The notes: generated by a model from the sequence alone, not told the origin. A stretch of DNA of 41,523 nt from Candidatus Woesearchaeota archaeon (GCA_021734865.1 JAIPIC010000011.1:1-41523), one strand, 5' to 3'. Numbered from the stretch's first letter, positions 174-4,451 are shown. A program made the numbers and translations.

Positions 174-449
174 ATGCTAATAACTGTTAAGGATGGGATT
201 ATTCTGACATTAAATCCTAGGTTTTATGACCTAGATTCTATAATAACAGCATTATCCGAGTTATCATCTAATTTCAGAACAAGGATGGAATCCGAATCCG
301 GGTATAAATCAACAGTGTCTCAGAAGTATATTAAGATTTTTCTTACTACTAAAAATCACCATTCTAATATTAATTCAGTCAAGAACAGAAATAGAATTAA
401 GATATTTTTGACAAGGGCTCTAAATGATAAAAATAACAGCACCAGTTAA
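174..449 (+). CDS. Small protein, possibly HxsD-like (weak resemblance)
   Basis: 91 aa ORF overlapping the next ORF by 26 nt. The 'LTLNPRFYDLDSIITALSELSSNF' and C-terminal 'IFLTRALND' pattern recalls HxsD-type small proteins. Confidence 0.45.
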   Translation: MLITVKDGIILTLNPRFYDLDSIITALSELSSNFRTRMESESGYKSTVSQKYIKIFLTTKNHHSNINSVKNRNRIKIFLTRALNDKNNSTS

Positions 450-1311
450 TCAAGAGATGGATGCACGTTTGGATGCGGATGAATTTTATACTGGTCATCT
501 TCCTGGATCATGGATCAGAAGATTTGGAATCCTTGCCGCACCGAGTAGGAGATATTTTAATGAGTCATACGCTCAGGATGCAATCTCAAAAATTGTGCGA
601 TTAGCTGGTGCAAAACCAGTTTATATCACTTATAATGCTCCCTTTTACAATGAGGCCCAGAAGAAGATTATCATAAAGGATATTGAAGAAATGATTCGGC
701 AGGGTGTGAGTGGTTTTATTATTGCTGACTTTACTTTGATAGATGAGATTCATAAGATAAATAAGGGCAATAAATCGGTCGAGATTCATCTGAGTACGGT
801 TGGAAATGTTTTTAACAAAGAGTCCGCGCGCTTCTTTTTCAATATGGGGGTAGATAGGATAATTCTCCCAAGACAATTAAAATTTGATGAGATCAAAAAG
901 ATTGTAACTACAATTCCTGGAAAATATGAGGTGTTCATGCTTTTTGACTTGTGCAGGAATATTGATGGAATGTGTTCTTTCCAGCATGGTCTGGAGGATA
1001 CTTTAGGTTATGACCATGGGTGTTTGTACTTAAACAAATATGAAGACCCTGATAAGGATTTAAATTCCAGAATATCATACTGTCAAAGGAGGAAATTGAA
1101 GTTCCCTATGTTCTGTGCTGCATGTTATATTGATAAATTCAAAAAAATAGGGATTCATTCGGTAAAAATCGTAGGAAGAAGGATGCCTCATGAACTGAAG
1201 GAAAAAGGGGTGCAGTTCATCAGAGCGGTTATTAATGGTAAAGAACCAAAGGAGAGTTATGCAAGACATTTCTTGCGGCGTTGCCCTATGATAAAATCAA
1301 ACTATTATTGA
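424..1311 (+). CDS. Peptidase U32 family protein, UbiU-like Fe-S cysteine pattern
   Basis: TIM-barrel U32-like text 'GVSGFIIADFTLIDEIHK...EIHLSTVGNVFNKESARFFFNMGVDRIILPRQL'; cysteines C177-x6-C184-x15-C200, then C220, C231-x2-C234. Confidence 0.75.
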   Translation: MIKITAPVNQEMDARLDADEFYTGHLPGSWIRRFGILAAPSRRYFNESYAQDAISKIVRLAGAKPVYITYNAPFYNEAQKKIIIKDIEEMIRQGVSGFIIADFTLIDEIHKINKGNKSVEIHLSTVGNVFNKESARFFFNMGVDRIILPRQLKFDEIKKIVTTIPGKYEVFMLFDLCRNIDGMCSFQHGLEDTLGYDHGCLYLNKYEDPDKDLNSRISYCQRRKLKFPMFCAACYIDKFKKIGIHSVKIVGRRMPHELKEKGVQFIRAVINGKEPKESYARHFLRRCPMIKSNYY

Positions 1312-1338
1312 TAAAATAGATTATTACAAAATAGTAAA

Positions 1339-2901
1339 ATGAAAAAAAAAAGTAATCAGGAAGGGCTATGGGAATCCTATTACAAAAATTATCAGATGGG
1401 TCCTTGGGAGACGACTGACTTTGATTATTCTTTAAAGGTACTGCTTGAAAATAAGCAATCTAAATCTACAGAGAATGAGTTGTCTACAAAGCAATCTGTT
1501 TTGGATGTTGGTTGTGGTACTGGACGCAACTGTAAGCTTATGAGAGATCTTGGTTTTGATGTGACTGGCATCGATATATCAAAGACTGCAATTGAAAAAG
1601 CAAAAAAGGTTGTTAAATGTCATGTAATGTCATCCTTAAATATGAATTTTAAGAAATGTTTCCAACTTGTAGTTGATTATGGCTGCCTGCATTCATGTAA
1701 GGGTGATGAAGTGATTCATCTCAGGAATGTTTGGAATGCTCTTGAGCCGGATGGGTTGTATATCTTAAGAGTATTTTCAGATAATCATCCTTTAAAGGAT
1801 GCTTATGAATTATTTCATAAGCTCAATATAGGTTTTTATTCAAAAAGCAGGATTACCAAGCTTGTGAAAAGGTTCTTTAAGATCGTCCATTATGGCCCTG
1901 ATATTGAGAGAAATGGGAAAAATAAAAATTTCCACCTTTTTTTGTTGAAACCATTGCCGCATGAACGAAACGTATGGGGTTTTCCAGAGATCAGTTTTAA
2001 GAGGAATCTAAGACCAATAATCAAGCATGAGATTGCCGTACATATTAACGATAAGAATTATCAAAAAGATTGTGACATCACAAGATGTGACTCAAAAATT
2101 GTTAAGATTGGCAGATTTGACGCAACAAGGATCTATTATGGAAATGAATTCTGCTCAAGGATTAAACCTGATATTAGGGTTTTTAAGAATAATGATATAG
2201 CAATCACTCTATTGACACCCCTTATTCCAGAAGAGGACTTAAAAAGTTGGGTTTCAATAATCAAAGATTTGTCCGTAAGTCATCCCAATTCTGAGGTTGT
2301 TTTCAATGATTGGGGGATTCTTAATACTATCAATGAGTACGGTCTCAAACCTGTTTTGGGCAGGCTCTTGGTCAGGCAAAAGAATGATCCCAGAACTATT
2401 AGACTCAAGTCACTTGTTCCTAATTTCAGAAACTTTATGGAATGCTCGCTAAGTTCAAAGGCCTTTATTGATTTTCTGCTGCAAAACGGAATAAGAAGGG
2501 TTGAACTGTCCAACACATTGCAGGGTATTTATGTTCCAAAAGACGCTTGGAAGCGTCTTAAGATTACACTTCATATACCTGATGTCCCTATTTCTGTGAC
2601 TAGAATGTGCATGTTTGCAGGGGGCGACAAACCTAGTAATAATCGTAACTTTGGGATAATCGACTGCGCTCAGGAATGTAGGAGCAACTGTGAGAATCCG
2701 GATACTGTAAAAGGTTCACGTGATAAAAGCAATATAAGAAATAGAGATAAAATAATTGATAGTCGGAAGCGGATGATCTTGGATGATATATCTATGCCAT
2801 ATAAATTATTTCTCGAGGGAAATGTACAGTATTATGAAAATTATTCACTAGAAAATATTTCTGTTAGTGATAGGCTTGTTTTCCATCCGAAAAGCATATA
2901 A
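1339..2901 (+). CDS. Fusion: N-terminal class I SAM methyltransferase plus C-terminal U32/UbiV-like domain
   Basis: Motif I 'VLDVGCGTGRNCKLMRDLGFDVTGIDIS' in the N-terminal ~200 aa; C-terminal 'ATRIYYGNEFCSRIKPD', 'SEVVFNDWGILNTINEYGLKPVLGRLLVRQKNDPR' and C-x18-C-x3-C are U32/UbiV-like. Confidence 0.75.
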   Translation: MKKKSNQEGLWESYYKNYQMGPWETTDFDYSLKVLLENKQSKSTENELSTKQSVLDVGCGTGRNCKLMRDLGFDVTGIDISKTAIEKAKKVVKCHVMSSLNMNFKKCFQLVVDYGCLHSCKGDEVIHLRNVWNALEPDGLYILRVFSDNHPLKDAYELFHKLNIGFYSKSRITKLVKRFFKIVHYGPDIERNGKNKNFHLFLLKPLPHERNVWGFPEISFKRNLRPIIKHEIAVHINDKNYQKDCDITRCDSKIVKIGRFDATRIYYGNEFCSRIKPDIRVFKNNDIAITLLTPLIPEEDLKSWVSIIKDLSVSHPNSEVVFNDWGILNTINEYGLKPVLGRLLVRQKNDPRTIRLKSLVPNFRNFMECSLSSKAFIDFLLQNGIRRVELSNTLQGIYVPKDAWKRLKITLHIPDVPISVTRMCMFAGGDKPSNNRNFGIIDCAQECRSNCENPDTVKGSRDKSNIRNRDKIIDSRKRMILDDISMPYKLFLEGNVQYYENYSLENISVSDRLVFHPKSI

Positions 2902-2977: not shown

Positions 2978-3871
2978 ATGACTGAAGAACTGAATTCTAA
3001 AAATAACGGAATCAAATTAAAAACTGGCCTTGCTGATATGCTAAAGGGCGGTGTGATCATGGATGTAGTTACTGCTGAGCATGCAGCTATTGCTGAAAAA
3101 GCCGGTGCTGTCGCTGTAATGGCACTTGAGAGGGTGCCCTCTGACATTAGGCAGGCAGGCGGCGTTGCACGGATGAGCGATCCAAAGCTTATCAAGGAGA
3201 TAATGGCTTCAACAACAATACCTGTAATGGCAAAGATTAGAATTGGTCACTTTGCAGAAGCACAAATTCTAGAGTCTTTAGGTGTTGATTATATTGATGA
3301 ATCAGAGGTTCTGACTCCTGCTGATGAGAAGTATCATGTAAGCAAATGGGATTTCAAGGTTCCTTTTGTGTGCGGATGTACAGGATTGGGCGAAGCCCTC
3401 AGGAGGATTCATGAAGGTGCCGCTATGATCCGGACAAAAGGTGAGGCTGGTACAGGGAACGTTGTAGAGGCTGTGAGGCACATGAGGACAGTTAATGAGG
3501 AGATTGCTGCTTTGAAGGAAATGTCGGAATCTGAATTAGACACTAAAGCTAAGGAGTATCGTGTTCCTGTTGAGCTTCTCAAGAAGGTAAGGGAACTGGG
3601 ACGTCTTCCGGTTGTGAATTTTGCTGCAGGAGGGATTGCAACCCCAGCAGATGCTTCTTTAATGATGCAACTAGGTTGTGATGGCATATTTGTCGGTTCA
3701 GGCATATTTAAATCTTCAAATCCAACAGCCATGGCTCGTGCTATTGTCGATGCAACAACAAATTATAAGGATTCAAAGAAGCTGGCTGAGGTTTCTGAGG
3801 GTATTGGTGACCCCATGAAGGGTCAAAACATTGCAGACCTTGATGTGAAACTCTCTGAAAGGGGCTGGTAA
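2978..3871 (+). CDS. pdxS: Pyridoxal 5'-phosphate synthase, PdxS subunit
   Basis: Conserved '[46 protein letters not shown]' and '[13 protein letters not shown]'. Confidence 0.98.
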
Positions 3872-3872
3872 C

Positions 3873-4451
3873 TTGGTCAAGGTCGGTGTCCTGGCTTTGC
3901 AGGGTGATTTCAGGGAGCATATCTGGAGACTCAAAGCATTGAATGTGGATGCGTTTGAGGTTAGAAAAATAGATGAACTTGATGCAGTTGATGGGTTGAT
4001 TATTCCAGGAGGAGAATCTACCACAATTGGAAAGCTTATCCGCCGCAATGGTTTGACTGATCTATTGAGGAGATACCATAAACCAATCTGGGGAACATGC
4101 GCTGGAGCTATCCTTCTGGCTAAAGATATCGAGGACAGCGATCAATTCAAACTTGGCCTAATGAATATAACGATCAGAAGAAATGATTATGGCAGGCAGA
4201 TCGATTCTTTCTCTCAGGATATTGAATTAAACATCAATGATCAGAGAACCTCTTTTAATGCAATCTTCATCCGCGCCCCAAGGATTACAAAACTGGGAGA
4301 AAGTGTCAAATCTTTAGCTGAGTGTAATGGTGATGCAGTCATGGTAATAGAAAAGAATAGGCTGGCGACAACCTTTCACCCTGAACTGACAGATATGAAT
4401 ACTGTTCACAAATTCTTTGTTGAATTGATAGTTAAGCAACAGAATCACTGA
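3873..4451 (+). CDS. pdxT: Pyridoxal 5'-phosphate synthase, PdxT glutaminase subunit (TTG start)
   Basis: 'VGVLALQGDFREH', 'LIIPGGESTTIGKL', 'PIWGTCAGAILLA', 'TTFHPELT'; directly follows pdxS. Confidence 0.97.
   Translation: MVKVGVLALQGDFREHIWRLKALNVDAFEVRKIDELDAVDGLIIPGGESTTIGKLIRRNGLTDLLRRYHKPIWGTCAGAILLAKDIEDSDQFKLGLMNITIRRNDYGRQIDSFSQDIELNINDQRTSFNAIFIRAPRITKLGESVKSLAECNGDAVMVIEKNRLATTFHPELTDMNTVHKFFVELIVKQQNH

Follow-up and report, generated by a model that had tools for sequence, protein, structure and literature searches.

A methyltransferase-fused U32 pair in a Candidatus Woesearchaeota archaeon as a candidate peptide-tailoring cassette

The 41,523-nucleotide stretch of Candidatus Woesearchaeota DNA analyzed here (the window) carries near its start three genes that may form a peptide-tailoring cassette, in which an O2-independent and probably prephenate-dependent peptide hydroxylase would be coupled to O-methylation, a reading to which a probability slightly above one half (about 0.52) is assigned. 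The core of the cassette is a pair of U32 proteins from a separate, unnamed UbiU/UbiV-like clade of archaea and bacteria that is not UbiUV. Relatives of this pair are found in archaeal His-Xaa-Ser (Hxs) RiPP loci and in quinohemoprotein amine dehydrogenase (qhp) operons, and it is this genomic context that points to a peptide.

The cassette is encoded on the plus strand and comprises, as originally predicted, three consecutive co-directional ORFs of which the first two overlap. A small HxsD-like protein of 91 aa (positions 174–449) shares 26 nt with the ORF of a UbiU-like U32 protein of 295 aa (424–1311), which is separated by 28 bp from a 520-aa fusion (1339–2901) composed of an N-terminal SAM-dependent methyltransferase domain (1339–2031, Methyltransf_25) and a C-terminal UbiV-like U32 domain (2032–2901, assigned with a 35-row family, hhalign, and an AF2 model). 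Downstream, at 2978–4451, lie pdxS and pdxT, ordinary pyridoxal phosphate synthase genes. Upstream, positions 1–139 are occupied by a high-copy repeat of approximately 140 bp, recognized from its copies in the same genome and its inverted arms (61–81/124–144 and 43–53/54–64). About 20 near-complete copies, most of them 94–100% identical, and many partial ones are present in the genome, often at contig ends, and the contig of the window (C2) itself begins inside one. This palindromic-armed repeat looks like a MITE-type element and is a cause of assembly breaks. Since the contig ends inside the repeat, the genes located 5' of the cassette are hidden. Scans for promoters and terminators gave no signal above shuffled sequences.

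The HxsD-like label of the first ORF is likely right, although the curated HxsD model TIGR03976 does not match it. Archaeal Hxs loci contain a second, shorter HxsD-like protein (65–95 aa) beside HxsD, between HxsD and HxsB, and a custom profile was built from archaeal HxsD and these HxsD-small proteins by iteration, keeping the window ORF out at every rebuild. Against this profile ORF 174–449 scored 22.3 bits (E 1.6e-5 among 4142 ORFs), compared with 7.9 bits for the next ORF outside Hxs loci and 12.4 bits for the best of 2000 shuffles.

The second ORF encodes a U32 protein recognized by Pfam Peptidase_U32 (PF01136) with 93.4 bits (cut-off 22.4, E 1.6e-26), and its family profile aligns with true UbiU at a probability of 99.95 in profile comparison. 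The NCBIfam models, in turn, place it far below their cut-offs, with TrhP as best match (66 bits, cut-off 534) and UbiU at 59.1 bits (cut-off 440), and a HMMER search of the PDB with the UbiU-like rows retrieved 5d88 only at E 0.036. Its cysteines are arranged as C177-x6-C184-x15-C200, followed by C231-x2-C234 and C287, and the six corresponding columns are filled in 26–27 of the 27 rows of the UbiU-like family. The product is presumed to be the [4Fe–4S] half of a heterodimer. Cys 234 and Cys 287, which belong to the C-x2-C and to the C-terminal C...CYY region, fall outside the four known UbiU ligands and are kept in 26 of the 27 UbiU-like members; they may point to an extra metal site.

The N-terminal domain of the fusion is a methyltransferase (Methyltransf_25 E 2.8e-13; Methyltransf_25/11 about E 1e-12) with an intact VLDVGCGTG motif and weak UbiG/UbiE similarity. 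The C-terminal domain is unrecognized by every Pfam or NCBIfam U32 model, NCBIfam UbiV included, and its assignment to the superfamily comes from profile comparison: hhalign ties it to the UbiU-like partner set (probability 91.6, E 8e-7), and a weak match with true UbiV (E 7e-4, probability 27%) extends over 205 columns with the four Cys aligned. It contains YGNEFC272SR and C424-x18-C443-x3-C447 (fusion numbering), and the four Cys columns are occupied in 35/35, 35/35, 34/35, and 34/35 of the UbiV-like rows; the Cys columns of both the UbiU-like and the UbiV-like rows are not due to chance. The AF2 model of the fusion reaches pLDDT >90 across most of residues 261–420, and its methyltransferase part is poor because no aligned rows cover that part. 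Foldseek returned TIM barrels as best matches of the modelled UbiV-like domain (TrpA and DHPS; E 4e-4, low TM), and a HMMER search of the PDB with the UbiV-like rows gave no relevant match. A natural UbiU–UbiV fusion, in which the two partners form one protein (L056), yields a model that matches the U32 protein Mk0906 (5d88) at E 3e-7, with its UbiV half modelled at low confidence.

The original prediction, made from the sequence alone, holds for the composition of the locus. Its HxsD-like call agrees with the custom profile, and the cysteine spacings that it reported for both U32 proteins (C-x6-C-x15-C with a later C-x2-C in the first, an early YGNEFCSR cysteine with C-x18-C-x3-C in the second) match the sequence. 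The methyltransferase fused to a UbiV-like domain was borne out by Methyltransf_25/11 on the N-terminal side and by the profile–profile link on the C-terminal side, so that the second of the two U32-type proteins, for which a placement outside U32 had been named as the refuting outcome, is tied to the UbiU-like set by profile comparison, and the first by Pfam. The similarity to the arrangement of E. coli UbiU and UbiV is also correct (UbiU Cys 169/176/193/232; UbiV Cys 39/180/193/197). Conservation of the exact trio as a cassette, however, was not supported: the neighbourhood survey showed conservation of the U32 pair instead, and the order HxsD-like, UbiU-like, methyltransferase–UbiV was seen in the window alone among the surveyed loci.

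A scan of a GTDB genome set identified 39 loci with a UbiV-like gene, distributed among Thermodesulfobacteriota, other proteobacterial MAGs, Omnitrophota, Acidobacteriota, a Helarchaeote, an Undinarchaeote, a Pacearchaeote, and others. In 27 of them the UbiV-like gene has an adjacent UbiU-like gene on its own strand; the 12 unpaired cases come from MAGs of Thermodesulfobacteriota/Proteobacteria, together with a contig end and a bin whose label says no more than uncultured bacterium. Of the unpaired genes L021–L023, L026, L027, L029, L030, L032–L034, and L042, several lie near RdgB-like and DAHP-synthase genes; the unpaired UbiV-like genes possibly have another role or an unlinked partner. The genome of the window holds two more U32 pairs, on contigs C31 and C76. 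Methyltransferase fusions recur in the family, with the methyltransferase placed first in the window and last in C76, L044, and L045, and these domains are homologous (E 1.7e-15 between the window and C76; 7e-14 and 3e-12 with L044 and L045).

In the phylogenetic tree, the 27 UbiU-like rows form a clade with 100/100 support, distinct from the true UbiU clade (94/92) and the TrhP/RlhA branch, and the window row sits within it on a long branch (1.71) without supported nearest kin. This position bears on two readings with other substrates. A UbiUV-like pathway, in which the head group of a quinone or another isoprenoid would be hydroxylated and then methylated in the manner of UbiG/UbiE, draws on the kinship with UbiU and UbiV and on the weak similarity of the methyltransferase, but it is the least probable of the alternatives: the window row lies outside the true UbiU clade with 59 of the 440 bits required, the SCP2/UbiT neighbour found at every annotated true locus inspected is missing around the window genes, and the presence of three divergent pairs in this genome is more in keeping with tailoring than with a single core cofactor pathway. 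The identification of the pair as UbiUV itself was ruled out by the cut-offs, the tree, and the missing UbiT. It is also highly improbable that the pair hydroxylates RNA as TrhP1/TrhP2 or RlhA do and that the methyltransferase targets the RNA base. RNA is a known substrate of this superfamily and TrhP-type U32 pairs exist (PMC6599085, PMC11574389), and TrhP is the best NCBIfam match of the UbiU-like ORF; this score, however, is far under the cut-off, the clade is separate, and the occurrence is patchy (3 of 378 class genomes) and falls in peptide-maturase operons instead of RNA-gene contexts.

The long branch, the high-copy repeat adjoining the start of the cassette, and a UbiU-like C-terminus lacking the last Cys of the family's CYY motif could mark the window copy as a relic, decaying or without catalytic activity, next to a mobile repeat. 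This is improbable, since all ten positions invariant among the UbiV-like proteins, the eight invariant among the UbiU-like ones, all main Cys ligands, and the SAM motif are intact, and the reading frames are uninterrupted and closely packed. The copy shares just 22–36% identity with the relatives from which function is transferred.

The linkage of the family to Hxs loci is found in four genomes, that of the window and those of three other archaea. In the former, the C76 cluster contains HxsB (429 bits, cut-off 370), HxsD (39.9 bits, cut-off 50), an HxsA-like precursor, two more radical SAM proteins, and a U32 pair. A single ORF of 1237 aa on the minus strand of this contig (L015:4495–8208) combines B12-radical-SAM, GT4-type glycosyltransferase, UbiV-like U32, and methyltransferase domains. 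In G123/L099, a run in one direction, in which most genes overlap or nearly so, consists of an A24-like peptidase, HxsD, HxsD-small, HxsB (454 bits), HxsA, a 715-aa radical SAM protein, and the UbiU-like and UbiV-like proteins. In a Pacearchaeota locus (L052) the pair lies approximately 2 kb from HxsB/HxsA (HxsB 472 bits), and in G240/L098 approximately 7 kb (HxsB 464 bits). Across 378 genomes of the class, a UbiV-like gene was present in 3 of the 24 HxsD-positive and in none of the 354 HxsD-negative genomes (Fisher p 2.3e-4), a statistic that stands on small numbers and takes no account of phylogeny. No HxsB, HxsC, or HxsA precursor was found in the 41.5 kb of the window. Four precursors of the HxsA type are present in the genome, on C40, C76, and C39, with HxsB accompanying HxsA on C40 and C76, so the window cassette could act in trans. 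One of the precursors (L179:8761–9561, minus strand of C39) has an HxsA-type leader and a short core, joined to a domain of the Hint/intein type (Pfam Hint E 5.7e-8); it lies beside B12-radical-SAM genes and a methyltransferase-like ORF, and is possibly a self-releasing Hxs precursor. To our knowledge, neither a U32 pair nor a methyltransferase is among the described Hxs genes. A literature search, with subscription papers outside its scope, returned no publication linking U32 proteins to RiPPs, Hxs, or tryptophylquinone.

A second type of locus concerns the tryptophylquinone cofactor CTQ. In classical qhp operons, the flavoprotein QhpG, a FAD- and O2-dependent monooxygenase, is reported to 6,7-dihydroxylate the Trp residue that becomes CTQ (PMC7876137). 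In L055, a complete qhp operon (QhpA E 1.5e-163, QhpD 5e-178, QhpC 2.8e-41, QhpE 1e-47), the U32 pair has the QhpB-like gene on one side and the QhpF/QhpE genes on the other, and L050, L051, and L054 are further qhp loci among those with a U32 pair. Four plasmid qhp loci, in turn, contain QhpG-like genes and lack the pair. With 28 additional distinct Acidobacteriota qhp loci gathered via the gamma subunit, all of them tested by tblastn, 36 distinct loci were compared: 6 carry the U32 pair alone, 26 a QhpG-like gene alone, 4 neither (two of these on short or truncated contigs), and none both. This mutual exclusion is significant (Fisher p 1.1e-4, or 8.8e-4 without three weak QhpG matches). Genome-wide searches of four U32-type genomes detected no QhpG homolog, and the gamma-subunit motif C-x-W-P, which holds the CTQ target Trp, is retained in all qhp loci. 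PF04820 proved too broad as a proxy for QhpG, and real QhpG sequences were used instead. The second qhp locus of genome G378 (L146) has QhpA, QhpD, and QhpC, with neither QhpG nor a U32 pair within 9 kb; the pair in the other qhp locus of this genome might serve both. On the plain reading of these genomic data, QhpG would be replaced by the U32 pair in such operons, and from the mutual exclusion we infer that the Hxs/qhp-linked pairs are probably peptide hydroxylases. A wider proposal, ventured tentatively and at somewhat less than even odds, is that this unnamed heterodimer family consists of O2-independent, prephenate-driven side-chain hydroxylases of ribosomal peptides, which would serve archaeal Hxs RiPPs, replace QhpG in tryptophylquinone formation, and be fused in the window to a methyltransferase capping the new hydroxyl.

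Some members are found in other surroundings, and these weigh against a peptide as general substrate. They occur in glycan- or small-molecule-like clusters (C31, L041, L043) or with mutases (L028), and the main rival to the peptide reading, although unlikely, is that small molecules, sugars, or lipids are what the family hydroxylates, in anaerobic pathways to natural products or surface glycans; Hxs and qhp would then be special cases, and the window product a hydroxylated and then methylated small molecule. Consistently, the C31 pair (L014:7831–15519) is followed by genes for a NeuD-like acyltransferase, a radical SAM protein, a NodU-like carbamoyltransferase, and a B12-radical-SAM protein, NeuB and a CTP transferase are encoded in L041 and a glycosyltransferase in L043, and the C76 fusion includes its GT4-type domain. 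A cluster related to that of C31 is present in Ca. Saelkia (L039). Such a role, however, leaves unexplained why QhpG is replaced in qhp operons and why an HxsD-like ORF overlaps the window U32 gene. The fusion of other members to, or their flanking by, a glycosyltransferase, a carbamoyltransferase, and an acyltransferase fits a tentative general scheme in which the pair would install a hydroxyl handle that is later capped.

U32 oxidases are reported to contain [4Fe–4S] clusters, to form heterodimers, and to require prephenate as the oxygen source (PMC11574389). Under the peptide-tailoring reading of the window cassette, the UbiU-like protein would likewise associate with the UbiV-like domain in a heterodimer of two U32 TIM barrels, each with one [4Fe–4S] cluster, and this heterodimer would place a hydroxyl group on the substrate without O2, the oxygen atom probably coming from prephenate as for UbiUV and TrhP. 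The fused methyltransferase would then O-methylate the new hydroxyl, and the HxsD-like protein would act as the peptide-handling partner. Prephenate should be available, since the genome encodes a chorismate synthase–chorismate mutase fusion with an adjoining TyrA-like gene. Because neither a precursor peptide nor HxsB lies nearby, the substrate of the window copy is reached by inference: it would most likely be a ribosomal His-Xaa-Ser-type peptide, whose gene would lie in another part of the genome or just past the contig end and whose modified residue would probably be an aromatic one or His. The sequence of reactions first proposed, hydroxylation and then O-methylation, is kept as the best chemical guess, and the quinone-like, RNA, or peptide substrates then considered are narrowed to a peptide because of the Hxs RiPP and qhp operon context.

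If this is true, U32 chemistry would extend to RiPPs and protein-derived cofactors, the formation of the Trp-derived quinone in qhp operons without the flavoprotein QhpG would be explained, and chemical steps could be predicted for the Hxs systems of DPANN-like archaea. Moreover, QhpC would provide a small and genetically tractable peptide substrate for studying prephenate-dependent hydroxylation by mass spectrometry.

Among known systems, the U32 oxidases characterized in a review act on quinones or RNA, and their mechanism is still open (PMC11574389). The window pair resembles UbiU–UbiV of E. coli in its two adjacent U32 genes, in the expected heterodimer, and in the common Cys architecture (C-x6-C-x15/16-C-...-C in one partner, C-...-C-x12/18-C-x3-C in the other). 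Unlike UbiU–UbiV, its family forms a clade of its own, lacks UbiT and a quinone context, and includes methyltransferase fusions, and its UbiU-like half has two extra family-wide Cys (in the C-x2-C and at C287). The RNA hydroxylases TrhP and RlhA, for which prephenate dependence has been reported, share the U32 superfamily with the pair, but they are deeply separate in the tree, the TrhP score is 66 of 534 bits, and the window shows no RNA-modification neighbourhood. The Hxs system (HxsABCD) is approached through the HxsD-like ORF of the window, the several Hxs loci of its genome, and the presence of the pair in some archaeal Hxs loci, and the window differs from it in lacking HxsB, HxsC, and HxsA. 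Finally, relatives of the window pair fill the place of QhpG in six qhp loci, which suggests that they probably carry out the same reaction on the same peptide; QhpG is a monooxygenase that depends on FAD and O2, whereas the U32 pair, an enzyme unrelated to it, is predicted to be of the Fe–S type.
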